DNA from: Streptomyces sp. V1I1
Lineage (GTDB): Bacteria; Actinomycetota; Actinomycetes; Streptomycetales; Streptomycetaceae
Reading direction: 5' to 3'
NCBI RefSeq assembly: GCF_030817355.1
Contig: NZ_JAUSZH010000001.1
Location: 7,787,001-7,851,000, forward strand
DNA: 64,000 nucleotides
Shown one piece after another: positions 2,307-20,869 of the stretch. Numbering within the stretch: position 1 is the stretch's first letter; each line of letters begins with the position of its first letter. The notes under the pieces are model-generated. The model saw only the letters and a program-made list of their open reading frames with translations. It searched no databases and had not been told where the DNA came from. Position numbers and translations under genes: made by a program.

Positions 2307-2333
2307 CCCGCCGGCCCGGCTTCAGCCGGCGGG
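2307..2333. terminator. Bidirectional terminator hairpin
   Basis: A 9-bp perfect GC stem (CCCGCCGGC / GCCGGCGGG) with a 9-base loop lies 1 bp after the flavodoxin stop and overlaps the last codons of the convergent LysR gene. There is no T-run, as is usual in Streptomyces. Confidence 0.6.
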
Positions 2334-3530: not shown

Positions 3531-6500
3531 GTGATCTCTCAGCCCGCCCGGCAAGCAGGCCGGGACCTCGTCGTCGTGGTCAGCCCGTTCGAGGAGCCCA
3601 ACGCCCCGATGGTCGCGGCCGCCGGACGGGCCGGCGCGCTGGGCCTGCTCGACCTCGGCAGGGATCGTGACCGGGCACGCACCGCGATGGCCGAGCTGAG
3701 GGGCCGCTACGGCGTCCGCCTACCGGCCGGATGCCCGCTCACCCCGGACGAACTGCCCGCCGCCGTGGACACCGTGCTGCTCACCGAGCCCTGGTGGCGC
3801 ACCGGCACGGAGGTCTGGGCGGCCGGTGGCAGGCGCCAGGTATGGGCCGAGGTCATCAGCCCCGCCGAGGCCGCGGCCGCCGTCGCCGCCGGCGCGGCCG
3901 GCCTCGTCGCCAAGGGACACGAGGCCGGCGGCCGGGTCGGCGAACTGACCACTTCCGTACTGCTGCAACGGCTCCTGGCCGACCCCGAGTTGACGGTGCC
4001 GGTCCTGGCGGCAGGAGGCATCGGCCTGCACACGGCGGCCGCGGCCGTCGCGGGCGGAGCCGCCGGCGTCGTACTCGACACGCAGCTCGCGCTGACCACC
4101 GAAGGCGCGGCCCAACTTCCCGCCGCGGTCGAGGCCGCGATCCGGGCCATGGACGGCAGCGAAACCGCCGTCGTCGCGGGCCACCGTGTGTACACCCGTC
4201 CCGACCTGGCACCGCCGCAGGGGAACATCGCCGAACTCCTCGGCGCCCGCGGCCTGCACACGCAGCCACTGCCCATCGGACAGGACGGGCCGATCGCCGC
4301 CCGGCTTGCCTCGCGCCACCGCACCACCGGCTCCGTCGTACAGGCCGTCAGGGCGGCCATCACCGACCACCTCGAAGCGGCCGTACGAGCCCGCCCCCTC
4401 CAGCCGCGCCCCGGCGAACGCCACCTGCCCGTGGTCCAAGGGCCCATGACCCGCGTCAGCGACCGGCCCGCCTTCGCCTCCGCCGTGGCCGAAGCAGGCG
4501 GGCTGCCCTTTCTGGCCCTGGCCGTGATGGACGGCCATGACGTGCGCGAGCTGCTCGGCGAGACCGCCGAGCGCCTGGCCGGCCGGGACTGGGGCGTCGG
4601 ACTGCTCGGCTTCGCCCCCGACGAACTGCGCCGCGAACAGCTGGCCGCCGTCGCTGAGACACGGCCCCCGTACGCGATCATCGCCGGCGGCCGGCCCGCG
4701 CAGGCCGCCCCACTCGAAGCCGCCGGGACCCGGACATATCTGCACGTACCCTCCCCGGGTCTGCTGGAGCAGTTTCTCGCCGAGGGAGCGCGCAGGTTCG
4801 TCTTCGAAGGGCTCGAATGCGGCGGCCACATCGGCCCGCGCGCCGCCTTCCCGCTCTGGGAGGAGCAGATCGAGCGGCTGCTCGCGTGCCCGTACGCCGC
4901 CGAACTCGACGTGCTCTTCGCCGGTGGCATCCACGACGAGCGATCCGCGGCGATGGCGATGGCCGCCGCCGGTCCGCTCGCCGAGCGCGGGGCCCGGACC
5001 GGCGTCCTCATGGGCACCGCCTATCTGTTCACCGAGGAGGCCGTCGCCGCCGGAGCCGTGCTGCCCGGCTTCCAGCGGACGGCGATCGAGTGCGAGGCAA
5101 CCGCGCTGCTGCGCACCGCCCCAGGCCACGCCACACGCTGCGCGGCAACGCCGTACGCCGATGCCTTCACCGCCACCGCCCAGCGGCTTCGGCAGGACGG
5201 CGCGAGCCCTCATGAAGTCTGGGAGGAGCTGGAGAAACTCAACCTCGGGCGGCTGCGGATCGCCAGCAAGGGCCTGCGCCACACCGTCGCGGGCCCCGTC
5301 CCGGTGGACGAGAGGGAGCAGCGCCGCGAGGGCCTCTACATGCTCGGCCAGATCGCCACCGCCCGCACCGCCACCACCACGGTCGCGGCCTTGCACGCCC
5401 AGGTGACCGAGGGAGCGACGGCCCTGCTCGCCCAGCGGGCGGAGCAGCTCCGCGGTCTGCCGGCCATGGACGACCGGCACGATGAGGCCCCGCTCGACAT
5501 CGCCGTCGTCGGCATGGCCTGCCGCTACCCCGGCGCGGACGACCTCGCGGGGTACTGGTCGAACGTCGTCGCCGGGACCGACTCCGTCACCGAAGTGCCC
5601 GCCGGCCGCTGGGACACCGCCGCCTACCACGATCCCGACCCGGCGCGGGCCGGAGAGCGGACCCCGTCCCGGTGGGGCGGCTTCCTGCCGCCCGCGCCGT
5701 TCGACGCGCTCGCCCACGGCATCGCCCCGGCCTCGCTCGGCAGCATCGAACCGGTGCAGCTGCTCGCACTCGACATCGCCGCCCGCGCCCTCGCCGACGC
5801 CGGTTACGCGGGGGAGCGGCACTTCGACCGCTCCCGCACCTCGGTCGTCTTCGGCGCCGAGGCGGGCACCGATCTCGCCGGCGCCTACGGCTTCCGCGCC
5901 CTGCACCCCGGCTACCTCGGTGAGCTGCCGCCGGAGCTGGACGCCCAACTGCCCCGGCTGACCGAGGACTCCTTCCCCGGCGTCCTCGCGAACGTCATCG
6001 CGGGCCGGGTCGCCAACCGCCTCGACCTCGGCGGCGCCAACTGCACGATCGACGCCGCCTGCGCATCCTCGCTCGCCGCCCTCGACCTGGCCTGCAGGCA
6101 ACTGCGCGACCGGGACAGCGACATGGTGCTGTGCGGCGGCGCCGATGTGCACAACGGCATCAACGACTACTTGATGTTCGCATCCGTACGCGCCCTGTCG
6201 CCCACCGGCCGCTGCCGCCCCTTCGACGCCGCCGCCGACGGCATCGCCCTCGGCGAAGGCGTCGCCTGCCTCGTACTCAAACGACTGGCGGACGCCGAAC
6301 GCGACGGCGACCGCATCTACGCCGTCGTCAAGGCCGTCGGCGCCTCCAGCGACGGACGCTCCCTCGGCCTCACCGCACCCCGCCCCGAAGGCCAGCGTCG
6401 CGCACTGGAACGCGCCTACCGGCGAGCCGGAGTCACGCCCGCCGAGATCGGCCTCGTGGAGGCACACGGCACGGGCACCGTCGTCGGCGACAGCACCGAA

Positions 6501-9500
6501 CTGGCCGTTCTCACCGAGGTGTTCGCAGAGGGTGACACGGGCTCCTGCTCGCTCGGCTCGGTCAAGTCGCAGCTCGGCCATACGAAATGCGCGGCGGGCC
6601 TGGCCGGGCTCGTCAAGGCGGCTCGGGCCGTGCACTCCGGCGTACGGCCGCCGACCCTGCACCTGACCAGCCCCAACCCCGCCTGGCAGCCGGATACCAG
6701 CCCCTTCTGCTTCGACACCGAGGCCAGGCCGTGGGCCGCGCCCGCCGGGCAACGGCTCGCCGCGGTCAGCGCCTTCGGCTTCGGCGGCACCAACTACCAC
6801 GCGGTCCTCGCCGGTTACGGGGATGCGGGCGAGCCCGCACACGGGCTGGATGCCTGGCCCGCCGAGCTGTTCTGCTTCCGGGGCGCCGACCGCGTGGCCG
6901 CACTCCGTGCGATCGACCGCCTCGCCGCCAGGCTGGAGCAGAACGACGTGGCGGGACGCCCATGGCCGCTGCGCGACCTCGCCGCCGAGACCTCGGCCGG
7001 TGAGACCTCGGCCAGTGAGACCTCGGCCGGTGAGGGCGAGATCCAGGTCGCGGTCGTCGCCACCGGCCTCGACGACCTGGCCGCCAAGCTGGACCGGGCC
7101 CGGAAGTTGGGCGCGGGCCCCGGCGACGGCGTGTATGTACGCGACGAGAGAGATCCTGGGCGGGTCGCCTTCCTCTTCCCGGGGCAGGGCAGCCAGCGCC
7201 CGGGCATGCTCGGCGACCTCTTCATCGCCTTCCCCCGGCTGCGGACACTGCTGCACGACGCGGACCGGCACCAGGCAGCGACGATGTTCCCGCCCGCAGC
7301 CTTCACGCCCGCGGAGCGAGCCGCCCAGCGCGCAGCCGTGACCGACACCCGGGTCGCCCAGCCCGCCCTCGGCCTCACCGGCGCCGCCGCGCACCTCCTG
7401 CTCACGACGCTCGGCATACGTCCCGACTGCACGGCCGGCCACTCCTACGGCGAACTGGTCGCCCTCTGGGCCGCCGGTGTCTATGACACCGCGACCCTCC
7501 TCCGGCTCAGCGACCGCAGGGCCGACGCGATCCTCGCCGCCGCCGGTGACGACCCCGGAGCGATGGCCGCGGTGCCCTCGGCGCCCGAGGACCTGCCGGA
7601 ACTGCCGCCCGGATGCGTCGTCGCCAACCACAACGCACCGACGCAGTGCGTCATCTCGGGACCGACCCCCGCGGTCGACGCCGCCATCGGCGCACTGCGC
7701 GACGCGGGCATCGACGCCGAACGCATCCCGGTCGCCTGCGCCTTCCACAGCGGCGTCGTCGCGGGCGCCGCCGACGCGCTGGCCACGGAACTGGCCGGTT
7801 CGGCCGTGGCCGAGCCCGCGGTCCCGGTCTGGTCGACCACCACCGCTCGCCCCTACCCGGCCGACGCGGTGGCCGTACGGGAGTTGCTGGCCCGCCAGCT
7901 TGCCGAACCCGTGCGCTTCGCCGAGCAGATCGAGGCCATGTACGCCTCCGGGGTACGGACCTTCCTGGAGGCCGGGCCTGGCCGGGTGCTCACCGGGCTC
8001 GTCGGCCGCATCCTGGGCGACCGGCCGCACACCGCTGTCCCGCTCGACGTCCCGGGCGAACACGGGCTGAGCCGCCTGGTGACCATGCTGGCCGAACTCG
8101 CCGCGGCGGGCGTCCCGTTCGACCCGGAGCCTCTGTTCAGGGGCCGTACCGCGGCGCTGCCCGCCGAGACACCCCGACGCGCCGGCTGGCTGGTGGACGG
8201 CCATCTCGTGCGGACGGCGGACGGCGAACCCGTGGCGGGCGGACTGCGCCCGGCCCGGCGAGTGGCGGCGGCCCCTGCCCCGGCGGCCGCGGACCGGCGG
8301 GAGGACGCCGTACTGGAGTACCTGCGCGGAGCCCGGGAGCTGGTCGCCGCGCAACGGGATGTCCTGCTGGGCTACTTGGGGGCCGACCGCGTGCCGCAAG
8401 CGTCGGCCGCACCCGTGTGGGAGCCAGAACCCCTGGCGCCCCAACCGGCCGCCGACGACGCCCAAGCCGGTCCCCTGACGCACGATCAGCTCATGGACGC
8501 CGTACTGGAGATCGTCCATGTCCGCACCGGTTACCCGAGGGAGATGCTCGATCCCGCGCTCGACCTGGAAGCCGACCTCTCGGTGGACTCCATCAAGCGG
8601 GTGGAGATCATCGGTGCGCTGGCCGACCGCATCGGGCTGCCGCGCGGTCAGGACGGTCCGGCGGAATCGGCCGTCGAGGAACTCTCCCGGCTGAAGACCA
8701 TCAGCGGCATCGTCGACTGGATTGTCGCGCGAGGAGCTGTCACCGAGCCGGAAGCGCCCCCGGCCGCAGAGGCGCCCAAGCACGAGGACGCGCCTCGCCC
8801 GACGCTGCCCGCGCGACTTCTGGTCGAGGTCGCTCCTGTGGGGCCGCCCACCACCCGGGCCCCGGCCGATGTGCTACCCGGCCTGCGGTTCGCCGTCGTC
8901 GACGACGGCCTAGGGGTCGCCCTCGCCCTCGCCGCCGCGCTGGAGTCGCACGGCGCCGAGGTGCGCACCCTCCACCCGGACCGCCTGGCGGACGCCGCCG
9001 GGGCCGACGGCGTCGTGGACCTCAGCGCCCTGCGCCCCGCCCCGGACCCCGTGCTTCCGGGGGCCTTCGGCGCATTGCGCGCGACCTTGACGGCGGGCAC
9101 ACGCCGACTGCTGCTCGTCACCGGACGCGGCGGAGCGTTCGGCCGGACCGCGCCGTCACACGAATCGCCGTTCCCCGCCGACCCGATCCCCGGCGCGGGA
9201 CTGTACGGCTTCGCCCGTACCGCGGCGATCGAACACCCCGGCACCGTCGTACGCGCCGTGGACATCGACCCCAAGGACCGCCCCGAGCGGATCGCCGCCC
9301 ATCTGATCGCCGAACTGTGCGCCCCCGAGGAGCCAGTGGTCATCGGCTACACCAACGGCACCCGCAACACTCTGCGCACCGCCGCCGTGCCCCTTCCCGT
9401 CACCGAAGCGGCGCCACCGCTTGCGATCGGCCGCGACGCGGTGGTGCTGCTCACCGGCGGGGCTCGCGGCATCACGGCTCGTACGGCCATCGCCATCGCC

Positions 9501-10295
9501 GAAGCCACCGGCTGCCACATCGAACTCATCGGCCGCACCCCACCCCCCGACGACGCCGAGGACCCGGCCGTCGCCCACGCCCATGACCGGGTCGCCCTGC
9601 GTGCGGCCCTCGTGCGGCAAGGCCTGCGCACCCCCGCAGAGATCGAGACGGCCGCGACCCGCATCCTCGCCGCGCGCGAGATCCGCACCACCCTAGCCGT
9701 CCTCACCTCCACCGCCGCCTCAGTGCGCTATCACGCGGCGGACGTCACCGACGCCGATGCCGTACGCGCTCTCATCCGTGACGTACGCACGCGCCACGGT
9801 CGGCTCGACGGCATCGTGCACGGCGCCGGAACCATCGAGGACAGGCTGTTGCGTGACAAGGATCCGGCGTCCTTCGCGCGGGTGTTCACCACCAAGGTCG
9901 ACGGCGCCCGCCACCTCGCCGACGCCGCCGCGGACCACGGTGACGGCCCCGCCCCCACCTTCCTCGTCCTCTTCGGCAGCGTCGCAGGCGTCCTCGGCAA
10001 CCGCGGCCAGGCCGACTACGCGGCAGCCAACGACGCCCTGGACACCCTCGCGGCCACCCCCGCCTGGTCGCGCCGCTTCCCCGGCCGGGTCCTCGCCGTC
10101 GACTGGGGCCCGTGGGCGGCCGAGGCAGGCGGCATGGTCACCCCGGAGCTGGAGCGGATGTACGCGAGCCGCGGCATCCCGCTCCTCGATCCGGCCGCGG
10201 GCACGGCCGCGTTCCTCGCGGAGCTGGCGCACGGCACCACCGGCCAGGTCGTACTCCTCGCGGAAGAGGCTTCGGGGGCGAGCTCCCATGCCTGA
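3531..10295 (+). CDS. Type I iterative polyketide/PUFA-like synthase: ER(NMO)x2-KS-AT-ACP-KR
   Basis: 2254 residues, GTG start after AAGGAG. Residues about 1-300 form a degenerate nitronate monooxygenase-like TIM barrel. Residues about 300-560 form a second, fuller barrel with the flavin motif ECGGHIGP (429-436), related to PfaD enoyl reductases. A ketosynthase spans about 655-1080, with Cys844 in DAACASS, His979 in EAHGTGT and His1017 in GHTK. A glycine-proline-free Thr/Ser/Glu linker repeat follows. The acyltransferase has Ser1305 in GHSYG and a CAFHS motif suggesting malonyl use. One ACP carries Ser1687 in DLSVDSIKR. The C-terminal ketoreductase has TGGARG (1975-1980), Ser2150 and Tyr2163. 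No dehydratase or thioesterase is present; the next genes supply those. The domain set looks like PfaA fused to PfaD, or HglE-type synthases. The product is not known. Confidence 0.9.
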   Translation: MISQPARQAGRDLVVVVSPFEEPNAPMVAAAGRAGALGLLDLGRDRDRARTAMAELRGRYGVRLPAGCPLTPDELPAAVDTVLLTEPWWRTGTEVWAAGGRRQVWAEVISPAEAAAAVAAGAAGLVAKGHEAGGRVGELTTSVLLQRLLADPELTVPVLAAGGIGLHTAAAAVAGGAAGVVLDTQLALTTEGAAQLPAAVEAAIRAMDGSETAVVAGHRVYTRPDLAPPQGNIAELLGARGLHTQPLPIGQDGPIAARLASRHRTTGSVVQAVRAAITDHLEAAVRARPLQPRPGERHLPVVQGPMTRVSDRPAFASAVAEAGGLPFLALAVMDGHDVRELLGETAERLAGRDWGVGLLGFAPDELRREQLAAVAETRPPYAIIAGGRPAQAAPLEAAGTRTYLHVPSPGLLEQFLAEGARRFVFEGLECGGHIGPRAAFPLWEEQIERLLACPYAAELDVLFAGGIHDERSAAMAMAAAGPLAERGARTGVLMGTAYLFTEEAVAAGAVLPGFQRTAIECEATALLRTAPGHATRCAATPYADAFTATAQRLRQDGASPHEVWEELEKLNLGRLRIASKGLRHTVAGPVPVDEREQRREGLYMLGQIATARTATTTVAALHAQVTEGATALLAQRAEQLRGLPAMDDRHDEAPLDIAVVGMACRYPGADDLAGYWSNVVAGTDSVTEVPAGRWDTAAYHDPDPARAGERTPSRWGGFLPPAPFDALAHGIAPASLGSIEPVQLLALDIAARALADAGYAGERHFDRSRTSVVFGAEAGTDLAGAYGFRALHPGYLGELPPELDAQLPRLTEDSFPGVLANVIAGRVANRLDLGGANCTIDAACASSLAALDLACRQLRDRDSDMVLCGGADVHNGINDYLMFASVRALSPTGRCRPFDAAADGIALGEGVACLVLKRLADAERDGDRIYAVVKAVGASSDGRSLGLTAPRPEGQRRALERAYRRAGVTPAEIGLVEAHGTGTVVGDSTELAVLTEVFAEGDTGSCSLGSVKSQLGHTKCAAGLAGLVKAARAVHSGVRPPTLHLTSPNPAWQPDTSPFCFDTEARPWAAPAGQRLAAVSAFGFGGTNYHAVLAGYGDAGEPAHGLDAWPAELFCFRGADRVAALRAIDRLAARLEQNDVAGRPWPLRDLAAETSAGETSASETSAGEGEIQVAVVATGLDDLAAKLDRARKLGAGPGDGVYVRDERDPGRVAFLFPGQGSQRPGMLGDLFIAFPRLRTLLHDADRHQAATMFPPAAFTPAERAAQRAAVTDTRVAQPALGLTGAAAHLLLTTLGIRPDCTAGHSYGELVALWAAGVYDTATLLRLSDRRADAILAAAGDDPGAMAAVPSAPEDLPELPPGCVVANHNAPTQCVISGPTPAVDAAIGALRDAGIDAERIPVACAFHSGVVAGAADALATELAGSAVAEPAVPVWSTTTARPYPADAVAVRELLARQLAEPVRFAEQIEAMYASGVRTFLEAGPGRVLTGLVGRILGDRPHTAVPLDVPGEHGLSRLVTMLAELAAAGVPFDPEPLFRGRTAALPAETPRRAGWLVDGHLVRTADGEPVAGGLRPARRVAAAPAPAAADRREDAVLEYLRGARELVAAQRDVLLGYLGADRVPQASAAPVWEPEPLAPQPAADDAQAGPLTHDQLMDAVLEIVHVRTGYPREMLDPALDLEADLSVDSIKRVEIIGALADRIGLPRGQDGPAESAVEELSRLKTISGIVDWIVARGAVTEPEAPPAAEAPKHEDAPRPTLPARLLVEVAPVGPPTTRAPADVLPGLRFAVVDDGLGVALALAAALESHGAEVRTLHPDRLADAAGADGVVDLSALRPAPDPVLPGAFGALRATLTAGTRRLLLVTGRGGAFGRTAPSHESPFPADPIPGAGLYGFARTAAIEHPGTVVRAVDIDPKDRPERIAAHLIAELCAPEEPVVIGYTNGTRNTLRTAAVPLPVTEAAPPLAIGRDAVVLLTGGARGITARTAIAIAEATGCHIELIGRTPPPDDAEDPAVAHAHDRVALRAALVRQGLRTPAEIETAATRILAAREIRTTLAVLTSTAASVRYHAADVTDADAVRALIRDVRTRHGRLDGIVHGAGTIEDRLLRDKDPASFARVFTTKVDGARHLADAAADHGDGPAPTFLVLFGSVAGVLGNRGQADYAAANDALDTLAATPAWSRRFPGRVLAVDWGPWAAEAGGMVTPELERMYASRGIPLLDPAAGTAAFLAELAHGTTGQVVLLAEEASGASSHA
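6987..7031 (+). repeat. Three in-frame 15-bp tandem repeats (ETSAG linker)
   Basis: Three 15-bp units encode Glu-Thr-Ser-Ala-Gly/Ser from residue 1153 of the synthase, in the linker between KS and AT. The units are nearly identical in DNA, which points to recent slippage. A similar 15-bp triplet occurs in the kinase gene of the same operon. Confidence 0.9.
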
Positions 10296-13200
10296 CCGCG
10301 GCCCCCGCCCGGCCGACGCCGCCATCATCGGCATGGGCGCCGTCTTCCCCGGAGCAGCCGGCCTGGCCGCGTACCGTCGCAACCTCTTCGCGGGCACGGA
10401 CGCCATCAGCGAAGTACCACCCGGCCGCTGGGACCCCCAGGTCTACTACGACGCGAACCGCACCGAAGGACCTGCCCGTAGCGACCACTTCTACTGCCGG
10501 CGCGGCGGTTTCATCGACGACCTCGCCGCTTTCGATCCGACCCGCTTCGGCATCATGCCCGCGGCCGTGGCCGGTGCGGAGCCCGACCAACTGCTCGCCC
10601 TGCGGGTCATCGCCGAGGCCGTGGCCGATGCCGGAGGCGAGGAGCGGCTGCCCGCAGACCGCTCCCGGATCGGCGTCATCCTCGGCCGTGGCGGATTCAT
10701 GGGCGTTGCCACCGCCCGCCTCGACCAGCGCGTACGCACCGCCCACCAGCTGTCCGCGACCCTGCGCGAACTCGCCCCCGAACTGGGCGAGGAGCGGATC
10801 AAGGAGGTCCGCGAAGCCTTCCAGGCGGGACTCGGTCCGGAACGGCCGGAGGCATCGATCGGCCTCGTACCCAGCTTCACCGCCGCCAGGGCCGCCAACC
10901 GCCTCGACTTCCGCGGCCCCGCCTACACCCTCGACGCCGCCTGTGCCTCCTCGCTGCTCGCCGTCGAGCAGGCGGCCGGCCTGCTGGCGTCCGGCAGCTG
11001 CGACCTGATGGTCGCCGGAGCTGTCCACCACTGCCATATCGCCACACTCTGGAGCGTCTTCACCCAGCTGCGGGCGCTCAGCCCGAGCCAGCAGATCCGC
11101 CCCTTCGACCGCCGCGCCGACGGAACCCTGCTCTCCGAAGGCACGGGTGTCGTCCTCCTCAAGCGCCTCGCCGACGCCGAACGCGACGGCGACCGCGTCT
11201 ACGCCGTCGTACGAGGCGTCGGCGTGGCCGGCGACGGCCGGGCCGCGAGCCTGATGAGCCCCCTGGTGGACGGCCAGGTACGCGCCCTGCAGCAGGCCTG
11301 GGCGCAGGCCTGCCTGGACCCGGCAGCGCCTGGCGCGCTCGGTCTGCTGGAGGCGCACGGCACCGGAACGCCGGTCGGTGACGAGGCCGAACTCACCACC
11401 TTGGCCCGCGTCTTCGGTCCGCGCACGGCGGGCGCCGAGCCGGTCGCGATGGGCTCCGTGAAGTCGATGCTCGGTCACACCATGCAGGCTTCCGGGATGG
11501 CCGGGCTGATCAAGGCCGTACTCGCGGTGCACGACGGGACGCTGCCGCCGACGCTCCATCTCGAAGAGCCCCACGAGGGCTTCGCCAGGACGCGTATGCG
11601 CCCGGTGACGGTGGCGGAACCCTGGGACCGCGGGAGCGCGCCGCGACGGGCGGGCGTGAACGCCTTCGGCTTCGGCGGGATCAACGCGCATGTGGTGCTG
11701 GAGGAGGCACCGCGGGCCTTCGCCTCGGGCCACCGGCCGGGGCCGGGCCGACCGGCAGCGGCAGCGCGCGCCTCAGCGCCGACCGACGATCCCGCGGTGA
11801 CGCTGCTGGCCGCCAGGACTCCCGGCGAACTCGGCCGTCTGGTAGAGGAGTTGCGTATTGCGGAGCGCGCCGCGCAGTCGCCCACCTCCGACGGTCCCTG
11901 CCGCCTCGCCGTGCTCGGCCTTACCCCGAAGCGCCGGGCTCTGGCCGCGGCGGTCGTTGCCCGGGGACGGCCGTGGCGGGGGCGCGGCGGCGTGTGGTTC
12001 ACACCGCGCACGCTGCTCGCGCACGATGCCCGACCGGCCTTCCTCTTCCCCGGCCTCGAGCCCGACTTCGCGCCGCAGGTCGACGATGTCGCCGACCGCT
12101 TCGGGCTACCGCGGCCCGCCCTGACCGGCGGCGCCACGCTGGTGGAACGGGCGGTGGACGCCATCGCTGTCGGCCGCCTCTTCGCCCGCGTACTTCCCGA
12201 ACTGGGCATCCGGCCAGGCTTGTTGGCGGGGCACAGCCTGGGCGAGTGGACTGCGATGGTCGTCGCCGGGATGTACCCGCAGCACGCCGTCGACACCTTT
12301 CTCGACTCGCTGCGGCCGGGCGATCTCGACGTTCCCGATCTGGTCTACGCGGCACTCGGCTGCGGGGCGGAGCAGGCCACCGACGCGCTGCACGGACTTG
12401 ACCGCGTCGCGGTGAGCCACGACAACTGCCCCCACCAGTCGGTCCTGTGCGGCGAACCCGGCCCCGTGGCCGCAGCGCTGACCCGGCTCGCCGACCAGGG
12501 CGTACTCACCCAGGAGCTGCCCTTCCGGTCGGGCTTCCACACACCCATGTGGGCGCCCTACCTCGACCAAGTGCGCGCCGCCTTCGCCCGGCTGCCGCTC
12601 CGGCCGCCGACCGTCCCTGTCTGGTCGGCGACCACGGTCGCCGCGTATCCGGGTACGGAGCAGGACGTACGGGACGTGGTGCTGCGCCATCTGCTGGAGC
12701 CGGTGCGCTTCCGGGAGTTGACGACACGGTTGTACGCCGAGGGCGTGAGGGCCTTCGTACAGATGGGCCCGGGCAGCCTCCCGGGTTTCGTGTCGGACAC
12801 TCTGCACGGCCGGGACCACCTCACGGTCTCCGCGGGCGCGGCCCGGGGCGGCAGCGGGCTGGACCAACTGCGCCGGCTGGCGGCGGCGTTGTGGACGGAG
12901 GGGCTGAACCCCCGCTGGGACCGGTTGACGGAGCGCGCGTCTTCGGTGCTGGGGCAGGGCGTTGCGCGGCTCGGTCCGGGGTCGAACGCCACACCGCCCG
13001 TCGAATCGGCGGCGCCTGTCGCAACGGCCGCGCCCGCTGCCCCCGAACCGAGCCTGGTGCGGCTCGATCTCGGATCTCCGCTGGTGAGCCTGGGTGGCGC
13101 CGCTTCCCCGCTCCGCCTGGCTCGTCCGTCCGGGAAGGCCCGGACAGTCGCCACTGACCAACCCCCCGTACTGCTCTCGGCCCTCGACGCAGTACTCGAC

Positions 13201-14856
13201 GAGACGGAAGACGCGGCGCGCGCCGTCGCGGAAGCCTGGCGCGCGGCACCCGCCCCGCAGTCGCCGAGGCGACCCGTCCCCAACGCCCCGGACGAAACGC
13301 CACCCGCCGACCGCGCCCGGCGGCGGCTCTCCCTCGAGACCATGCCGTACGTCCGCGACCACTGCGTCTATCTCCAGCCCGACAGCTGGCCCGAGGACTC
13401 GGACCGCTTCCCCGTCGTCCCCATGACCACGCTGCTGGAGCTCGCAGCGGACGCCGCGCGCCGCGCGGTGCCCGGAGGAGTGGTGACCGGTTTCGGCGAC
13501 GTACGGGCATTGCGCTGGCTGCCCGTCGCCCCGCCCGTCGACGCGGAGTTCAACGTGACCCCCGCCCCCACCGGCGGCCAGGTACGCGTGGAGATCGGCG
13601 GGTGCGCGAGCGTCACTGTCATCCTTGCCGACCGCCACCCCGTACGTCCCGCGCCCGATCTCTCGGCGCTGACCCGGGAAGGACCGCCTCCCGTCAGCGC
13701 CGAGGCCCTCTACCGCGACCGGTGGATGTTCCACGGTCCTCAGTTCGCCGGCGTCCACGAGGTGACCGCCGTCGCCGACGACGGCATTCGCGGGGTGCTG
13801 CGCGCCCTGCCCGCGCCGGGTGCGCTGCTGGACGCCGCCGGGCAACTCCTGGGCCACTGGATGCAGTTGCGCCTGCCCGCCGACCGGCTGGTCTTCCCCG
13901 CGTCCCTGGACCGGGTCATCCTGTACGGGCCCGCCCCACGTGACGGCGCGCTGCTGCACGCCACCGCCCGCATTCGCGCCGTACGGCCGGGCTCCGTACA
14001 CGGCGACGTGGAACTCGTCGCCGACGACGGCACCGTGTGGGCCCGCCTGGAAGGCTGGACGTACCGGCGTTTCGCGGCCGACGAGCGGGTGTGGCCGATG
14101 AAGTTCACCCCCGAGGTCTGCGGCATCGGCGAGCCGCAGCCCGGCGGCTGGTGCCTGGCCCGGCGCCGCTGGACCGACCCCGCCTCGCAGGAGCTGGTGA
14201 TGCGGCGCTATCTGGGGGCCGCCGAGCGGGCGGCGTACGAGCAGCGCCCGCCGCGGGCCCGCACGGCTTGGCTGCTCGGGCGGATCGCCGCGAAGGACGC
14301 CGTACGCCAACTGCTGTGGGACGGGGGCGCGGGGCCGCTCTTCCCCGCCGAGGTCCCGGTCGGCAACGACGACGAGGGCCGCCCCAATGCGCAGGGCCCG
14401 CTCGCCGCCGGACTGCGGCTCTCACTCGCCCACAAGGACCCGCTGGCCGTGGCGTACGCCCACCCCAGCCACGCGGTCGGCATCGACGTCGAGGCCGTCA
14501 CCGAGGACCCCGCGGCGCTGAGCCGTATCGCGCTCACCGCAGACGAGCGGCGGCTGGCCGGCCAACTCGCCGCGCGTGAGGGGTTCGACCGGGCCCAGGC
14601 ACTGACCGCAATCTGGTCCGCCAAGGAAGCCGCCGCCAAGGCCGAGGGCACCGGTCTGGGCGGCCACCTGAAGCAGTGGACCGTCACCGAGGGCCCCACC
14701 GGGCTCCGCGTGTTCTCTCCGCAGGGCCGCACCCACACCGTACGGATCAGCACCGTCCACGATCTGCCCGGCCCTGACGCTCGGCCCACCGCCCATGTCG
14801 TCGCCTGGACCCAACCCCCCACCCCGAACCCCATGGAGGCCAGCCATGGCATCTGA
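10288..14856 (+). CDS. Type I synthase partner: KS-AT-dehydratase-like-4'-phosphopantetheinyl transferase
   Basis: 1522 residues. ATG 10288 overlaps the end of the upstream synthase by 8 bp, indicating translational coupling. The ketosynthase (residues about 10-440) has Cys219 in DAACASS, His357 in EAHGTGT and His397 in GHTM, so it is catalytic rather than a chain-length-factor type. The acyltransferase has Ser650 in GHSLG and SGFHT. Residues about 1010-1280 look like a hotdog dehydratase, with His1025 after PYVRD and a conserved Pro-Met-rich follow-up. Residues about 1330-1510 are a Sfp-like phosphopantetheinyl transferase, with GIDVEAV (1398-1404) and WSAKEAAAK (1443-1451). The protein would therefore supply dehydration and activate the ACPs of its own pathway. 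There is no ACP inside it; a free ACP follows. Confidence 0.9.
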   Translation: MPDRGPRPADAAIIGMGAVFPGAAGLAAYRRNLFAGTDAISEVPPGRWDPQVYYDANRTEGPARSDHFYCRRGGFIDDLAAFDPTRFGIMPAAVAGAEPDQLLALRVIAEAVADAGGEERLPADRSRIGVILGRGGFMGVATARLDQRVRTAHQLSATLRELAPELGEERIKEVREAFQAGLGPERPEASIGLVPSFTAARAANRLDFRGPAYTLDAACASSLLAVEQAAGLLASGSCDLMVAGAVHHCHIATLWSVFTQLRALSPSQQIRPFDRRADGTLLSEGTGVVLLKRLADAERDGDRVYAVVRGVGVAGDGRAASLMSPLVDGQVRALQQAWAQACLDPAAPGALGLLEAHGTGTPVGDEAELTTLARVFGPRTAGAEPVAMGSVKSMLGHTMQASGMAGLIKAVLAVHDGTLPPTLHLEEPHEGFARTRMRPVTVAEPWDRGSAPRRAGVNAFGFGGINAHVVLEEAPRAFASGHRPGPGRPAAAARASAPTDDPAVTLLAARTPGELGRLVEELRIAERAAQSPTSDGPCRLAVLGLTPKRRALAAAVVARGRPWRGRGGVWFTPRTLLAHDARPAFLFPGLEPDFAPQVDDVADRFGLPRPALTGGATLVERAVDAIAVGRLFARVLPELGIRPGLLAGHSLGEWTAMVVAGMYPQHAVDTFLDSLRPGDLDVPDLVYAALGCGAEQATDALHGLDRVAVSHDNCPHQSVLCGEPGPVAAALTRLADQGVLTQELPFRSGFHTPMWAPYLDQVRAAFARLPLRPPTVPVWSATTVAAYPGTEQDVRDVVLRHLLEPVRFRELTTRLYAEGVRAFVQMGPGSLPGFVSDTLHGRDHLTVSAGAARGGSGLDQLRRLAAALWTEGLNPRWDRLTERASSVLGQGVARLGPGSNATPPVESAAPVATAAPAAPEPSLVRLDLGSPLVSLGGAASPLRLARPSGKARTVATDQPPVLLSALDAVLDETEDAARAVAEAWRAAPAPQSPRRPVPNAPDETPPADRARRRLSLETMPYVRDHCVYLQPDSWPEDSDRFPVVPMTTLLELAADAARRAVPGGVVTGFGDVRALRWLPVAPPVDAEFNVTPAPTGGQVRVEIGGCASVTVILADRHPVRPAPDLSALTREGPPPVSAEALYRDRWMFHGPQFAGVHEVTAVADDGIRGVLRALPAPGALLDAAGQLLGHWMQLRLPADRLVFPASLDRVILYGPAPRDGALLHATARIRAVRPGSVHGDVELVADDGTVWARLEGWTYRRFAADERVWPMKFTPEVCGIGEPQPGGWCLARRRWTDPASQELVMRRYLGAAERAAYEQRPPRARTAWLLGRIAAKDAVRQLLWDGGAGPLFPAEVPVGNDDEGRPNAQGPLAAGLRLSLAHKDPLAVAYAHPSHAVGIDVEAVTEDPAALSRIALTADERRLAGQLAAREGFDRAQALTAIWSAKEAAAKAEGTGLGGHLKQWTVTEGPTGLRVFSPQGRTHTVRISTVHDLPGPDARPTAHVVAWTQPPTPNPMEASHGI

Positions 14857-15166
14857 CCCCACCGCCGAACAGATACTCGCCGAGATCACCGCCATGCTCG
14901 TCGAGACAGTCGGCGACGAGTTCCTGCTCGCCGACGAGGTGACCCTGGCGACGACCTTCAACGAGGACCTGGCGCTGGAGAGCATCGAGTTCGTCGCACT
15001 CGCGGAACTGCTCCAGCAGCGGTACGGGTCAGCCGTGGACCTGATCGCCTTCCTGGCCGAGAAGGACATGGAGGAGATCCTGGCGATGACGGTCGGCGAT
15101 CTCGTGTCCCATATCGCCGGCCCGCCCGCTCCGGCCGGCGTTGTCGCCACCGCCCCGGCCGGCTGA
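14846..15166 (+). CDS. Acyl carrier protein
   Basis: 106 residues, ATG 14846 with GGAGG just upstream, overlapping the preceding synthase by 11 bp. It has a four-helix carrier-protein pattern with DLALESIEF; Ser46 is the expected phosphopantetheine attachment site (LxS in place of the usual DSL). The C-terminal tail is Pro/Ala rich. It lies directly after a protein containing its own phosphopantetheinyl transferase, so the partners are probably the KS/AT/DH protein and the downstream hydrolase. A type II ACP in a type I operon suggests loading or transfer to a separate enzyme. Confidence 0.88.
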   Translation: MASDPTAEQILAEITAMLVETVGDEFLLADEVTLATTFNEDLALESIEFVALAELLQQRYGSAVDLIAFLAEKDMEEILAMTVGDLVSHIAGPPAPAGVVATAPAG

Positions 15167-15174
15167 GCCCGGCC

Positions 15175-15990
15175 ATGGCCGAGATTCTCGCCAACTCCCT
15201 CCGCTTCCACGTCCACCGGCTGCCCGCCGCCGACTCGGGCAGTGGCGCGGGCGCGACCGCAGTCTTCCTGCACGGTCTGGTCGTCGACAACCTCTCCAGC
15301 TTCTACTGCACCCTCGCCGTCCCTGCCGCCCAGGCCGGGCACGATGTCGTCCTGTACGACCAGCGCGGCCACGGCCGCACCGAACGCCCGCCCACCGGCT
15401 ACGACATCGACACGTCAGTACGTGACCTGACCGCCCTGCTCGCCGCCCTGGGTCTCGAGGAACGCCCCGTCCATCTCGTCGGCAACAGCTACGGCGGCAC
15501 GCTCGCCCTGCACACCGCGCTTGCGCGCCCCGACCTCGTCGCCGGGCTCATCCTGATCGAGCCCCCGCTGAGCGGCCCCTGGATCGAGAACATGCTCGAC
15601 ACGCTCTCCGTCGCCGCCCTCGGCCTCGAAGGCAGCCAAGTGCCGCAGGAACTCGCCTCGCTCGGCGCGCGTAAGGCCGCCCGGCTGACCGCCACCGCCG
15701 ACGAACTCCTCAACCGCACCACCCTGATCGACGACATCACGACAGCGCGGCCGTTCACGGCCGAGGACTTCGCCCGGGTGCGCTGTCCGGTGCTGGCCGT
15801 CTGCGGGGAGCACTCCGAACTCGCTCCCGGCGCCCGGCAATTGGCCCGTTACGCCCCCCAGTGCACCGTCCGCGTCCTGCCGGGTCTCGGCCACGACGTG
15901 CTCCAGGGCGGCACCGGCGAGCTGCGCCGGGCAGTCCTCGACCGACTGGCCGGGGCCGCGCGCCGGCAGCCCGAGGCGGTGACGGTGTGA
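15175..15990 (+). CDS. Alpha/beta-hydrolase, thioesterase or acyltransferase-like
   Basis: 271 residues of the alpha/beta-hydrolase fold. It shows VFLHGL (oxyanion loop, residue about 30), DQRGHGRT near residue 62, the nucleophile elbow GNSYGG with Ser105, an acidic loop GEHSE near 207 and the catalytic His240 in GLGHD. The gene begins 8 bp after the ACP stop and ends with a GTGA overlap into the glycosyltransferase. In this operon, hydrolytic or transesterifying release of the chain from the ACP is the natural role, because neither synthase has a thioesterase. It is also a generic hydrolase family, so the release function is inference. Confidence 0.85.
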   Translation: MAEILANSLRFHVHRLPAADSGSGAGATAVFLHGLVVDNLSSFYCTLAVPAAQAGHDVVLYDQRGHGRTERPPTGYDIDTSVRDLTALLAALGLEERPVHLVGNSYGGTLALHTALARPDLVAGLILIEPPLSGPWIENMLDTLSVAALGLEGSQVPQELASLGARKAARLTATADELLNRTTLIDDITTARPFTAEDFARVRCPVLAVCGEHSELAPGARQLARYAPQCTVRVLPGLGHDVLQGGTGELRRAVLDRLAGAARRQPEAVTV

Positions 15991-17156
15991 AGGTGCTGTT
16001 CGTCGTCCCGCCGCTCGCCGGGCACGTCAACCCCACGGTCGCCGTCGCCGCCGAACTGGCCGCGCGCGGACACCAGGTCGCCTGGACCGGGCCGGCCGAA
16101 GTGCTCTCCGGTCTGCTCCCCGCACGTGCCGCCCTCCTCCCGTCCGGCGACCGCACCGGGCCTGGAGGCTACGGCGCGCTGCACGGCCGCTGGCGCGATC
16201 TGCGCGGCGTCGCCGCTCTGCGCTTCCTGTGGGAGGAGGCGCTCATCCCGCTCGCCCACGGGATGATGCCCGGAGTCGAGGCAGCGGTCGACGCATACGG
16301 CCCCGACGTGCTGGTCGCCGACCAACAGGCCATCGCCGGAGCCGTGATCGCCCAGCGGCGCGGACTGCCGTGGGTGACATCCGCGACGACAACGGCCGAG
16401 TTCACCAGGCCCTTCGCCGGTTTCCCCAAGGTGGGGGAGTGGGTGGCGGACAAGATCGCCGGATTCCTCGCCGCATACGGCGCACCCGCCGGCTGGGACC
16501 CGCGCTTCTCGGACCGTCTGGTTCTGGTCTTCTCCACCCCCGAACTCCTCGGCGAGGGCGAGGCCGGTCCCGATCACCACGCCTTCGTCGGACCCGCGCT
16601 CGGCTCCCGCCCGGCCGACGCCTCGCCCTTCCCGTGGCGGCGACTGGATCCCGTACGCAGCCGGGTGCTGGTCTCGCTCGGCACGCTCAACCGCGAGGCG
16701 GGCGGCCGCTTCTACACCGCGGTCCTGCGGGCCGCGAAGCGTCTGGCCGACCATGTGCAACTCATTGTGGCCGCACCCGCCGACTTGGTCGGAGAGGTAT
16801 GGGAGGACCATGTCCTGCTTCAGGAGTATGTCCCGCAACTCCCGTTGCTGCCGCATCTCGACGCCGTGGTCTGCCACGGCGGGCACAACACCGTCTGCGA
16901 GGCACTGGCCCACGGCCTGCCCCTCGTCGTCGCGCCGGTCCGCGACGACCAGCCGATCGTCGCCCAGCAGGTCGCGGCGGCCGGGGCAGGGATCCGGGTG
17001 CGCTTCGGCCGTCCTCGCGCGGACGAGATCCACGCCGCCATGAGCGCTGTCCTCGACGCCCCGCACCACCGCCGGGCCGCTCGCCGCATCCAGACGTCCT
17101 TCGCCGCGGCCGGCGGTGCCGCGGCCGCGGCCGACAGGTTGGAGAAGCTGCTATGA
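15987..17156 (+). CDS. UGT/MGT-type glycosyltransferase (GT1 fold)
   Basis: 389 residues, GTG 15987 overlapping the previous stop by 4 bp. The N-terminus MKVLFVVPPLAGHVNPTVAV is the acceptor-side loop of macrolide-type glycosyltransferases. HGGHNTVCEALAHGLPLV (residues about 295-312) is the nucleotide-sugar-binding motif, followed by the QP..AQQ region. These cytosolic enzymes move a sugar from an activated nucleotide donor to a small hydrophobic acceptor. Here the acceptor would be the lipid or polyketide made by the two synthases. The sugar cannot be read from sequence. The gene is coupled to the methyltransferase by an ATGA overlap. Confidence 0.9.
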   Translation: MKVLFVVPPLAGHVNPTVAVAAELAARGHQVAWTGPAEVLSGLLPARAALLPSGDRTGPGGYGALHGRWRDLRGVAALRFLWEEALIPLAHGMMPGVEAAVDAYGPDVLVADQQAIAGAVIAQRRGLPWVTSATTTAEFTRPFAGFPKVGEWVADKIAGFLAAYGAPAGWDPRFSDRLVLVFSTPELLGEGEAGPDHHAFVGPALGSRPADASPFPWRRLDPVRSRVLVSLGTLNREAGGRFYTAVLRAAKRLADHVQLIVAAPADLVGEVWEDHVLLQEYVPQLPLLPHLDAVVCHGGHNTVCEALAHGLPLVVAPVRDDQPIVAQQVAAAGAGIRVRFGRPRADEIHAAMSAVLDAPHHRRAARRIQTSFAAAGGAAAAADRLEKLL

Positions 17157-19018
17157 CACAGTCTCGTACTCGCGTCCCCTGGGTGGCGGTCGCCGCCCTG
17201 GCCGGGCTCACCGCAGGCACGGTGCGCGCCCGCCGCCGACTGGCGGCCGTACCCGTGCTGGACACGGACGCCCCTGCGGACAGTGTGCCCGCCGACGGCT
17301 GGCAACTGATCACCGCCCGCGGCGTCGAGGTCGACAAAGCCACCCTGGCCGCAGCGGTCGCCTACGCGGAACGGACCGGTCTGCAACTCCTCGACCTGGT
17401 CCCGGGCCAACTCGACACAGAACACGCACTGGGCATGCTCCGTGATCTCGACCTCAAGGACTCCCGCTTCGCCCGCACGGGCAAGGTGCGCGGCGCAGGA
17501 CACGCCCTGCTGGTGGCCGACCACGTCCGGGACCGGTCGGGGGCCGAGGTGGAGACCGACCTCGACACCGTGGAACTGCACACCCTGCTCGGCCGTTTGA
17601 AGGAGTACGCCACCGCCGCGACCGGTATCGCGATCGCCCCCGGAGTAACCGCCCCGGCGCCCGACCTCGCCGGGAGGGCCGCGGAGCTGCGCGCCCAGGG
17701 ACTGCCCCCGCGCCTGGTGGCCGCCGTTCAACTGGCAGGCCTGGCACTGCTCGTCCGTGCGGCCGCCACGGACCGCCGCTGGGGTGCAGCGGCACTCGCC
17801 CTCTACTGGCTGCAGCCCGCCCTGGTCCTCGGCCGCCGGGGCAGCAGCCCGCTGCGCCCGGCAGACCTGACGCGCGTCGCCGTCGCCCGGCCGCTGCACT
17901 GTGTCGGCACCGCCCTGCGTACCGCCGCGGGCGACGACCCCGGATTGGCAGGCACGCTGTCCGAGCTGGAAGCGCTGCGGCCCGGCTACGCCGCCGACCT
18001 CAAGGAGGGCACCGACAGGTTCCTCGAGCCCCGCCGCCCCGACTGCCCCTGGTGCGGCTCCACCGAGCTGACCGTACGCGCCCACATGCCCGACCTGTTC
18101 CAGGGCAAGCCGGGCCACTTCACCCTCGAACAGTGCGGGGGCTGCGGGCACACCTTCCAGAACCCCCGCCTCTCCCTCGTCGGCCTCGACTTCTACTACC
18201 GCGACTTCTACGACGGCCTCGGCGTCGGCGGCGCCGCCCATGTCTTCGGCACGATGGGCCCCTCGTACCGCGGCCGCGCGGCCATGCTCAAGCCCTTCGG
18301 CAAGCCCGCCGCCTGGCTGGACGTGGGCACCGGGCACGGCCACTTCTGCGACAGCGCCCGCGACATCTGGCCAGACACCCGCTTCGACGGCCTGGACATG
18401 GCCGCCACGGTGCGCGAGGCGGAGGCCCGCGGCTGGATCGGCACCGCCCACTGCGGTCAGTTCCCCGAGCTCGCCGCCGGGCTCGTCGACCGCTACGACA
18501 CCGTCAGCATGTACCACTACCTGGAACACACCCGGGACCCGCTCGCCGAGCTCGACGCGGCCGCCGAGGTGCTGCCTGCCGGCGGGCATCTGCTCATCGA
18601 GCTGCCCGACCCCGAGTCCCGGCTCGGCCGACTGCTGGGCGCACACTGGCTGCCCTGGTTCCAGCCCCAGCACCAGCACTTCATCCCGGTCGCCAATCTC
18701 CGCCAGGCGCTGGCCGAACGCGGGTTCACGGTCCTGGCCGAGGAACACGGCGCCGCCCACCAGTCCTGTGACTTCATCGGCGCCGTCCTCCTCACCGCGA
18801 ACCGGCTCGCCCCCAATCCGTACGCCCCCTGGGGACCGGGCGGCGCCTCCGTGGCCCGGCGGGCGTTCCGCACAGCCGTACAGACCGCGGCGCTGCCGTG
18901 CTACGCAGCCGCCGCGGCCCTGGACACAGCGCGCGCGGCAGTGGCCCGCGCCACCGATGGCGGCAACGCCTACCGCCTACTCGCCCGCAAGTCGCCACCG
19001 GCCCCTGGAGCGAGGTGA
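17153..19018 (+). CDS. Two-part protein: uncharacterised membrane-associated N-half plus zinc-ribbon SAM methyltransferase
   Basis: 621 residues, ATG 17153 in an ATGA overlap. Residues 1-290 begin with a hydrophobic segment and an Arg cluster, and contain a second hydrophobic region near 195-235. I do not recognise this half. Residues about 298-331 form a zinc ribbon (CPWCGS and CGGCGHTF), as in several sugar or lipid methyltransferases. Residues about 380-540 are a class I SAM methyltransferase with WLDVGTGHGHF as motif I, D of GLDMA as the ribose-binding acidic position and YHYLEHTRDP. The C-terminus resembles DUF-type tails of C-methyltransferases. It may modify the sugar or the lipid. The fusion with the N-half is unusual in length. 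Confidence 0.75.
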   Translation: MTQSRTRVPWVAVAALAGLTAGTVRARRRLAAVPVLDTDAPADSVPADGWQLITARGVEVDKATLAAAVAYAERTGLQLLDLVPGQLDTEHALGMLRDLDLKDSRFARTGKVRGAGHALLVADHVRDRSGAEVETDLDTVELHTLLGRLKEYATAATGIAIAPGVTAPAPDLAGRAAELRAQGLPPRLVAAVQLAGLALLVRAAATDRRWGAAALALYWLQPALVLGRRGSSPLRPADLTRVAVARPLHCVGTALRTAAGDDPGLAGTLSELEALRPGYAADLKEGTDRFLEPRRPDCPWCGSTELTVRAHMPDLFQGKPGHFTLEQCGGCGHTFQNPRLSLVGLDFYYRDFYDGLGVGGAAHVFGTMGPSYRGRAAMLKPFGKPAAWLDVGTGHGHFCDSARDIWPDTRFDGLDMAATVREAEARGWIGTAHCGQFPELAAGLVDRYDTVSMYHYLEHTRDPLAELDAAAEVLPAGGHLLIELPDPESRLGRLLGAHWLPWFQPQHQHFIPVANLRQALAERGFTVLAEEHGAAHQSCDFIGAVLLTANRLAPNPYAPWGPGGASVARRAFRTAVQTAALPCYAAAAALDTARAAVARATDGGNAYRLLARKSPPAPGAR

Positions 19019-19022
19019 CGGA

Positions 19023-19934
19023 GTGAGCACCCTGGACATCGCCCGCCGCCATACGGCCGACCCGCTCTTCCGGCTGGTCGCCTACGCTCTCGAATCGGCA
19101 CACGACCGGCCCCCGGCCACGGTGTGGAGCGCTCCGCACGCCTTCCACATCGGCTCGACGCGCCTCGTCGCCGCCGCCGGCTGGCCGGTGGCCGCGGCCG
19201 CCGCACCCCGCGACGACGGTCTCGTACGACTGAGTTCGCTCGCCCACCCGGCACAGAGCTGCGAACTCCCGCTCACCGGCCCGCCACCGCCCCACCCCGA
19301 CTGGGCGGCCCGCACCTACGCCCTGCTGCGCACCATGGCCGACGTCGGATACTGCCGCGGCGGCATCGACCTGCACATCCACTCCACGCTGACCGCCGCG
19401 GCCGGTCTTTCGAGCGCCGAACCGCTGGAGTGTGCCGTGGCGCTCGCGGTCGCCGACGTGCACGCCGGACGCACAAGGCCGCGCCCGCCGCGCGACAGGC
19501 TGGCCGGCTTTGCGCGGGCCGCTGCGCCCGACGGCGACGAAGCGCTGCGCGAGGCCGTGCTGTTCGCCCGCCCCGGCCGGGCCCTGCTGCTCGGCGGCCA
19601 CAGCAGGCGCCGCATCCGCTTCGACCCGGCCGAGCACGGCGCGCGGCTGACGCTGCTGGTGACCCGCAAGGAAGGCTCCGGCAAGGAAGGCTCCGGCAAG
19701 GAAGGCCATGGCGCAGGCGACATCCAGCGCGCTGTGGAGAGCGCGCGGCGTGCGGGTGCGACGGCCGCCTGGTGGCCCGGACTGCGGCCGGAGCGCAGCG
19801 CCCTGGTGCTGCTGCCGCAGGACCGGGTGACCCATGTCCGTACCACGGTGGCCGAGGAGTTCCGCACGAGCGGACGGCGCGTGCCGCGCTTCGTGAACAT
19901 CACCGTGGCGGGCGCGGCCCGCCGCGAGGAGTGA
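19023..19934 (+). CDS. Galactokinase-like GHMP-fold kinase
   Basis: 303 residues, GTG 19023, 4 bp after the methyltransferase stop. The segment TAAAGLSSAEPLECAVALAV (residues about 120-140) is the GHMP phosphate-binding motif of galactokinases, preceded by a sheet reading DLHIHST. The usual N-terminal GRVNLIGEH signature is only weakly present (GPHAFHIG-like) and the length is short for galactokinase (about 380), so substrate range is uncertain. It could phosphorylate the sugar used by the glycosyltransferase two genes upstream, or the product itself. Residues 216-230 are three Lys-Glu-Gly-Ser-Gly repeats, a flexible insertion. It ends in a GTGA overlap with a chimeric ORF. Confidence 0.7.
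   Translation: MSTLDIARRHTADPLFRLVAYALESAHDRPPATVWSAPHAFHIGSTRLVAAAGWPVAAAAAPRDDGLVRLSSLAHPAQSCELPLTGPPPPHPDWAARTYALLRTMADVGYCRGGIDLHIHSTLTAAAGLSSAEPLECAVALAVADVHAGRTRPRPPRDRLAGFARAAAPDGDEALREAVLFARPGRALLLGGHSRRRIRFDPAEHGARLTLLVTRKEGSGKEGSGKEGHGAGDIQRAVESARRAGATAAWWPGLRPERSALVLLPQDRVTHVRTTVAEEFRTSGRRVPRFVNITVAGAARREE
19668..19712 (+). repeat. Three in-frame 15-bp tandem repeats (KEGSG linker)
   Basis: Two identical 15-bp units and a third with two changes encode KEGSG-KEGSG-KEGHG from residue 216 of the kinase. Unit length and copy number match the ETSAG repeat in the first synthase gene. Confidence 0.9.
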
Positions 19935-20869
19935 GAGCAACGAGGGAGGGATCCACCGCCTGCACCAGCGGGCAGTACGCGCAGAAGCACAACCCCTGGT
20001 TCGCCTTCAAGAACGTGCCTCTCACCACCGGAAAGACCTGGGCGCAGTTCCCGAAGGGCGACTTCACCGCGCTGCCGCACCTGTCGTTCGTCGTTCCGAA
20101 CCAGTGCAACGACATGCACTCGTGCGCGGTCGCCACGGGCGACACCTGGCTCAGGAACAATCTCGATGCCTACGCCCAGTGGGCCAAGGCCAACAACAGC
20201 CTGCTGGTGCTGCTGCTCGTGCTGTTCGTACGAGACACCTCCGTGGGAAAGGCCGAGCGCGCGGCAGCGAGCCGAACACGCCATCCCCGCAGGGCACTTC
20301 GCACTCTCGCCCGCACCCGCGGTCTGCCGCGGCTGTGTCTGATCGCCGCGCTGCTCGGCGTGGTCACGGTGAGCGACTCGTTCCTCTATCTGCTGCTCCA
20401 GCGCCGCATCGACCTGCCCGCCCCCTACTTCCCGCTGCTGCCCGTCGGCGCCGCCGCCGGATTCCTGCTGCTTGCCGTGCCGCTGGGACGGATCGCCGAC
20501 CGGATCGGCCGCCGGCAGGTCTTCCTCGCGGGTCACGGGGCGCTGCTCAGCGCCTACCTGCTGCTTCTCGCGCCATGGGGCGGCGGGCTGGTGGCTGCCG
20601 GGTGCGTACTCGTGCTGCTCGGCGCGTTCTACGCGGCCACCGACGGCGTACTGATGGCCGCCGCGGGTCCGCTGCTGCCGCCGCATCTGAAGGCGAGTGG
20701 CCTTGCGCTGGTGCAGTCGGCGCAAGCCTTCGCCCGATTCGGCGGCTCGCTGCTCTTCGGCGCGGGCTGGATGTATTTCGGCCCCCACGGCGCTCTGACC
20801 GTGGCCGCCGCCGGTCTGGTCGTCGCCCTTGCCGCAGTCGCCACCCTCCACCGGGGCAGGCGCGCATGA
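19931..20869 (+). pseudogene. Chimeric ORF: internal phosphoesterase fragment joined to the C-terminal half of an MFS transporter
   Basis: An open frame from GTG 19931 (GTGA overlap with the kinase) to 20869. Residues about 7-90 match the interior of secreted phosphoesterase/phospholipase C family proteins (YAQKHNPWFAF, FVVPNQCNDMHSC, GDTWLRNNLDAYAQW). The sequence changes near 20200-20215, within a CTGCTGGTGCTGCTGCTC stretch, to the second half of a major facilitator transporter. That part has about six membrane segments, including GRIADRIGRR. Both parents lack their other halves, so this looks like a deletion fusion at repeated CTG bases. The frame is intact and coupled to the operon, so a hybrid protein could still be made, but neither activity should survive. 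Confidence 0.75.

Follow-up and report, generated by a model that had tools for sequence, protein, structure and literature searches.

A conserved actinomycete operon with Type M-like lipid synthases and a predicted glycolipid product

Seven plus-strand genes at positions 3531-19934 of the window, the 64,000-nt stretch of DNA analyzed here (7,787,001-7,851,000 of its contig, in a genome of 8.3 Mb), form a genuine, complete and conserved operon. Two large synthases are followed by an acyl carrier protein, a hydrolase, a glycosyltransferase, a methyltransferase and a galactokinase-derived protein, and since this order recurs in relatives it reflects more than chance. Its product may be a cyclic glycolipid of the type of the antiviral cycloviracins.

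Operon layout and the two synthases

Neighboring genes in the operon are coupled by overlaps or gaps of at most 11 bp. The synthases overlap each other by 8 bp, synthase 2 and the carrier protein by 11 bp, and the glycosyltransferase overlaps both the hydrolase and the methyltransferase by 4 bp; gaps of 8 bp and 4 bp separate the carrier protein from the hydrolase and the methyltransferase from the last gene. A sequence-only reading of this DNA had placed every junction at 8 bp or less, which holds for most of them but not for the synthase 2/carrier protein overlap. A mechanical ORF start for synthase 2 at 9757 was rejected, and its start is placed at 10288. Divergent from the operon lies a LysR-family regulator (2322-3215, minus strand; Pfam HTH_1 and LysR_substrate), whose family was found in at least 21 of the 56 gene sets clustered, the window included and many of the sets truncated. 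Flanking genes were called with a crude GC-by-codon-position script, and several ORFs were mis-called. Outside the core cassette, at 19941-20868 on the plus strand, a phosphoesterase piece of about 90 residues is fused in frame to the rear portion of an MFS-like protein. Many relatives carry a phosphoesterase at this place (whole in locus L009, 19579-20826), and in some of them MFS and propeller matches come next, which suggests a loss of DNA in the window. Beyond the methyltransferase, any one gene family was shared by at most 6 of 38 loci examined. The window also contains a tRNA-Cys gene at 50024-50113.

Synthase 1 (3531-10295, plus strand, 2254 aa) has an ER-like region (NMO/FabK-like) followed by KS, AT, ACP and KR domains in the Pfam scan. 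These are the domains read earlier as ER-KS-AT-ACP-KR; the ER region, however, consists of two FabK-like barrels in tandem. The first (residues ~1-285) is degenerate and lacks the usual His, a call based on sequence matches and a model's secondary structure, with the model's fold list spanning residues 206-620; the second (~287-620) is intact. Synthase 2 (10288-14856, plus strand, 1522 aa) had been described as KS-AT-DH-PPTase, and Pfam confirmed these domains (KS, AT, PS-DH and ACPS/PPTase); alignment places its DH dyad at H1025/D1182. Pfam also agrees with the earlier proposals that one reduction cycle is divided between the proteins, with KR and ER on synthase 1 and DH on synthase 2, and that the synthases bring their own PPTase, seen as the ACPS domain of synthase 2. 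Together, the two proteins comprise two KS and two AT domains and single ACP, KR, DH and PPTase domains, plus an enoyl reductase of FabK type; their catalytic motifs are present.

We used strict patterns to count these motifs in two sets, 64 long synthase 1 proteins and 69 synthase 2 proteins, both including the window and some duplicates; a motif missing from the counts can reflect a script mis-call, the strictness of the pattern or a real loss. Synthase 1 proteins carried KS EAHGTGT and AT GHSYGE in 64/64 cases, the KS cysteine in 61, the KR cofactor motif in 60, the ACP motif in 58, the KR Ser/Tyr in 52 and an LDD-like KR motif in 15. The window's synthase 1 has one ACP motif, as do most relatives; a few have two and some none. 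For synthase 2, the AT FH motif was found in 69/69, the KS cysteine in 66, AT GHS(L/V)GE in 64, the KS GH motif in 62, KS EAHGTGT in 36, two PPTase patterns in 59 and 60, and two DH patterns in 33 and 32. In an alignment of 26 synthase 2 proteins, DH His1025 and Asp1182/Gln1186 were present in all 26, and KS His357 was among the columns conserved in at least 24. The window's PPTase has the motifs EGRP (P1a) and LSLAH (P1b'), and P0 is absent from the window. Across the 69 proteins, P1a (a permissive pattern) was detected in 67, P1b' in 57, P0 in 2 and P1b in 0.

Tailoring genes and a galactokinase-derived pseudokinase

The carrier protein, hydrolase, glycosyltransferase and methyltransferase that had been read downstream of the synthases are all there on the same strand, and the glycosyltransferase is MGT-like. 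The free-standing acyl carrier protein (14846-15166, plus strand, 106 aa) scores 22.0 bits against PP-binding (cut-off 20.8), and its DLALESIEF motif is conserved in relatives. The alpha/beta hydrolase (15175-15990, plus strand), assigned by Pfam and an alignment of 37, has a GNSYGG nucleophile elbow and His240. The GT1 glycosyltransferase (15987-17156, plus strand) matches Pfam EryCIII-like_C and UDPGT and reaches 170 bits against the TIGR01426 MGT model, below the cut-off of 260. The methyltransferase (17153-19018, plus strand) combines an N-terminal extension (residues ~1-285) of long predicted helices with zinc-ribbon-like Cys pairs and a SAM methyltransferase domain; for residues 295-617 only, the model's fold list places it nearest to sugar C-methyltransferases acting on NDP-sugars. 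Pfam gave only a sub-threshold match for the extension, to an AsnC-type HTH (E 0.022). A degenerate GT2 domain as its origin found no support, with a profile comparison probability of 0.3% and no Pfam GT2 match; an HMM search gave no GT2 neighbor in a match list muddied by out-of-frame ORFs. At three loci (L131, L132 and L134) more than one zinc-ribbon methyltransferase match lies near the glycosyltransferase, with a GT2-like gene on the other strand. An ABC-exporter-like ORF, recognized by eye, follows the cassette by 0-40 bp in L027/L108, L044 and L125, all of which are without the methyltransferase.

The last gene (19023-19934, plus strand) had been taken for a GHMP sugar kinase. It proved instead to be a galactokinase relative that matches galactokinase models weakly and lacks all four kinase motifs. 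The protein resembles four galactokinases at 30-34% identity over the aligned part and has no Pfam match at E 0.01. We aligned 47 rows, four galactokinases and 43 for the window's gene and its relatives (several entered twice), and scored motifs typical of galactokinases and seen in the control sequences. EHTDY, GLSSSA, G(I/V/T)MDQ and TGG(G/A)(F/W)GG were each present in 4/4 controls and in 0/43 of the other rows. An active GHMP kinase is rejected on these missing motifs and, because all four are gone, the protein is by sequence a pseudokinase. Close relatives (E 1e-70 or better) occur in 11 of 150 genomes of the genus, its own included, with a contig-end fragment in one more; a distant relative (26%) is found in Thermomonospora. 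The fetched stretches of other genus loci, Frankiaceae and Allokutzneria albata gave no match, nor did the megaplasmid annotations, indicating that the pseudokinase is clade-restricted. In one genome (locus L118), a synthase 1 match near 8.10 Mb and a pseudokinase match at 4.15 Mb lie on the same contig, and the operon may be split there.

Distribution and synthase type

The cassette is not unique: the synthases with the carrier protein, hydrolase and glycosyltransferase, with or without the methyltransferase, recur in Streptomyces, Frankiaceae, Pseudonocardiaceae and megaplasmids. Among the best 120 of 7951 matches to synthase 2, identity was 64-98%, and the listed rows with an organism name were Streptomyces. 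A scan of genome contigs gave 45 loci; synthase 2, carrier protein, hydrolase and glycosyltransferase were together in 44/45. Across all loci retrieved in the analysis, L027/L108 and L035/L144 appear to be single loci obtained twice, and other duplicates were kept among the rows. The 44 span Streptomyces, Actinomadura, Thermomonospora, Amycolatopsis, Allokutzneria, Kribbella, Hoyosella, Williamsia, Actinokineospora and others, and include a Myxococcales MAG. The remaining locus, in a Lokiarchaeota MAG, has no more than a distant synthase; its contig (L053, 1320-12287) encodes a 3656-aa ORF, which may be truly archaeal or mis-binned, with a KS of Pfa type and weak matches to ER and KR.

In a first batch of 20 loci from the window's genus, picked by a PfaA match of the same class, both synthases, carrier protein, hydrolase and glycosyltransferase occurred in this order in 20/20, and the methyltransferase in 18. 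A second batch of 16, picked to include other synthase types, held the cassette in 6, its first part only in L118 and other types in 9. Across a class-wide sample, the glycosyltransferase was present in 41 of 296 genomes at E 1e-60, and in 19 of 20 class loci fetched by it the carrier protein and hydrolase lay beside it, L147 having the glycosyltransferase only. Frankiaceae loci carry the cassette as far as the sequence reaches, and the glycosyltransferase of one of them (L135) matches named Frankia, Parafrankia, Pseudofrankia and Protofrankia proteins. The cassette is also present on two Streptomyces megaplasmids, near IS3 transposases, a setting indicative of horizontal movement.

We built a KS tree in which the group labels were our own and which held neither KS of characterised pathways nor Shulse & Allen's Type M KS set. 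KS1 and KS2 each formed one clade (100/100). KS1 fell beside Pfa-like KS, with deeper forks at 92/78 and 93/89, and apart from modular, FabF-like and another iterative group; the fork joining KS2 with other KS groups was weak (76/11). TIGR02813 PfaA is the best NCBIfam model for synthase 1, at 872.5 bits against a cut-off of 1010.1. Like PfaA-PfaD, the window's synthases have a KS-AT-ACP-KR order and a flavin-type enoyl reductase. They differ in that a FabK-like tandem fused at the front serves as the reductase, multiple tandem ACPs are absent from synthase 1, which has a single one, a KS-AT-DH-PPTase protein stands in PfaC's place, and sugar and methyl tailoring genes are added.

Papers reportedly exist that name S. 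coelicolor SCO0126/0127 (Type L). Passages of the 2011 survey by Shulse & Allen (PMC3098273) place Type M secondary lipid synthases in 3/3 Frankia genomes, list Type M among types with uncharacterised products and give its PPTase signature as x(G/D)xP plus hShxH without the P0 motif hRxhLS. The window's PPTase likewise has P1a and P1b' and is without P0, and the cassette likewise occurs in Frankia. On the strength of its presence in Frankiaceae and this PPTase signature, that of Type M-T, the cassette is very probably a Type M secondary lipid synthase. The word glycosyltransferase appears 0 times in the main text of the survey (PMC3098273), whereas the window's cassette has one. A search of open-licence literature found no product of Type M.

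Candidate products and a weak Allokutzneria albata link

The earlier interpretation, which predicted a glycosylated long-chain lipid, is partly supported. We consider it an even bet that a Type M-like FAS/PKS makes a glycosylated hydroxyacyl chain that the hydrolase releases, probably as a macrodilactone and otherwise by hydrolysis. From the observed genes, domains, catalytic motifs and conservation we infer extender unit, step order, substrates, ring closure and product as follows. An iterative FAS/PKS would assemble a long acyl chain that is mostly saturated, with malonyl as the probable building unit. Synthase 1 would contribute KS, AT, KR and its second FabK barrel to the cycle and synthase 2 the DH, on carriers activated by the fused PPTase. 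Halting the reductive loop after KR would leave a beta-hydroxyacyl chain, which may then move to the free-standing carrier protein and be glycosylated at its hydroxyl by the inverting GT1 enzyme. The alpha/beta hydrolase would free the chain, probably through ester formation with a hydroxyl of the sugar and, failing that, by hydrolysis. Methylation of the sugar is the most likely role of the methyltransferase, and the pseudokinase may bind sugar or regulate.

GT1 enzymes are inverting. In passages of the literature, glucolipsin A and cycloviracin B1 have beta-glycosidic bonds only (PMC13047676), and glucolipsin, fattiviracin and cycloviracin are described as built from long hydroxy acids with glucose, with sugar on the hydroxyls of the chains, C6 of the glucolipsin sugar joined to the carboxyl, and outer sugars O-methylated in cycloviracins (PMC4365757). 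The window's cassette likewise predicts a hydroxyacyl glycoside, and a macrodilactone fits all core genes, the hydrolase included. Fattiviracin and cycloviracin, however, carry several sugars, whereas the window has one glycosyltransferase and one methyltransferase, and the fold of the latter is nearest to sugar C-methyltransferases, not to O-methyltransferases. The literature searched, all open-licence, yielded no gene cluster for cycloviracin, fattiviracin or glucolipsin. We propose only tentatively that the cassette is the locus of these compounds, in which an iterative FAS/PKS would pass beta-hydroxyacyl chains to a portable carrier protein-hydrolase-glycosyltransferase-methyltransferase unit that would glycosylate and methylate them and close the ring, satellites would add sugars and the pseudokinase would assist in the window's clade.

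Text in PMC4365757 names Kibdelosporangium albatum as the cycloviracin producer, and NCBI taxonomy equates this species with Allokutzneria albata. The macrodilactone idea predates the finding of the cassette in A. albata, whose locus has the full gene order plus a second fused methyltransferase. A. albata, A. multivorans and A. oryzae were among the best 120 of 7979 matches to an Allokutzneria synthase 2; no other macrodilactone producer is named among these 120, which in so short an excerpt counts neither for nor against the idea. A. albata also has a carrier protein-hydrolase-glycosyltransferase-methyltransferase unit 1.3 Mb from the cassette, where the 20 kb retrieved contain no match to a synthase, and a congener (G437) likewise has such a unit without a synthase; these units lie at 4386-8452 of L172 and 3988 to ~7950 of L173, far from the main cassette. 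Their occurrence suggests that the four proteins work together. Relatives of the glycosyltransferase are present in 3/3 genomes of the genus and in 38/100 of the family. Besides the cassette, the A. albata genome encodes two Pfa-like synthases, at 1.756 and 3.745 Mb, which score 860 and 884 bits with the PfaA model (cassette, 682 bits). Both lie away from the genome's two matches to the cassette glycosyltransferase, although other glycosyltransferases may be near them. One of these synthases (L175) adjoins genes that by eye are OleA- and OleB-like (olefin synthesis). Because of the 38/100 family genomes and the two further synthases the link is weak, and the presence of the cassette in A. albata is suggestive only of a tie to cycloviracin.

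The same enzymes, needing no cyclase, could instead yield a linear glycosylated, possibly methylated, hydroxy fatty acid or ester as a membrane or cell-surface glycolipid. The hydrolase may then be merely a thioesterase, and the glycosyltransferase matches in four named Frankiaceae genera would suit a structural lipid. We regard this as somewhat unlikely, as it leaves unexplained why the hydrolase is kept between carrier protein and glycosyltransferase in the observed loci, and the patchy distribution and megaplasmid copies look like specialised metabolism. Glycosides of long-chain alcohols or diols like heterocyst glycolipids share the pairing of an FAS/PKS with a glycosyltransferase, and passages of the 2011 survey assign heterocyst synthases to Type F in the same broad set (PMC3098273); the operon's Pfam matches, however, include no thioester reductase, the release domain, leaving the operon without an enzyme to make a free alcohol end, and such products are improbable. 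A polyunsaturated fatty acid synthase, despite PfaA being the best model, is the least credible product type and was rejected on the score below the PfaA cut-off, the single ACP motif in place of a tandem series and the PPTase motifs without P0, alongside one DH of PKS type and the glycosyltransferase and methyltransferase.

A glycosylated hydroxyacyl product, closed as a macrodilactone or freed by hydrolysis, is a refutable product class predicted from anatomy, and A. albata is one species in which the hypothesis can be decided. The half-degenerate reductase tandem and the pseudokinase are structural oddities of interest to enzymologists. The cassette would be a variant of a known synthase type, one named in 2011, spread through many actinomycetes including Frankia, and chemically blank.
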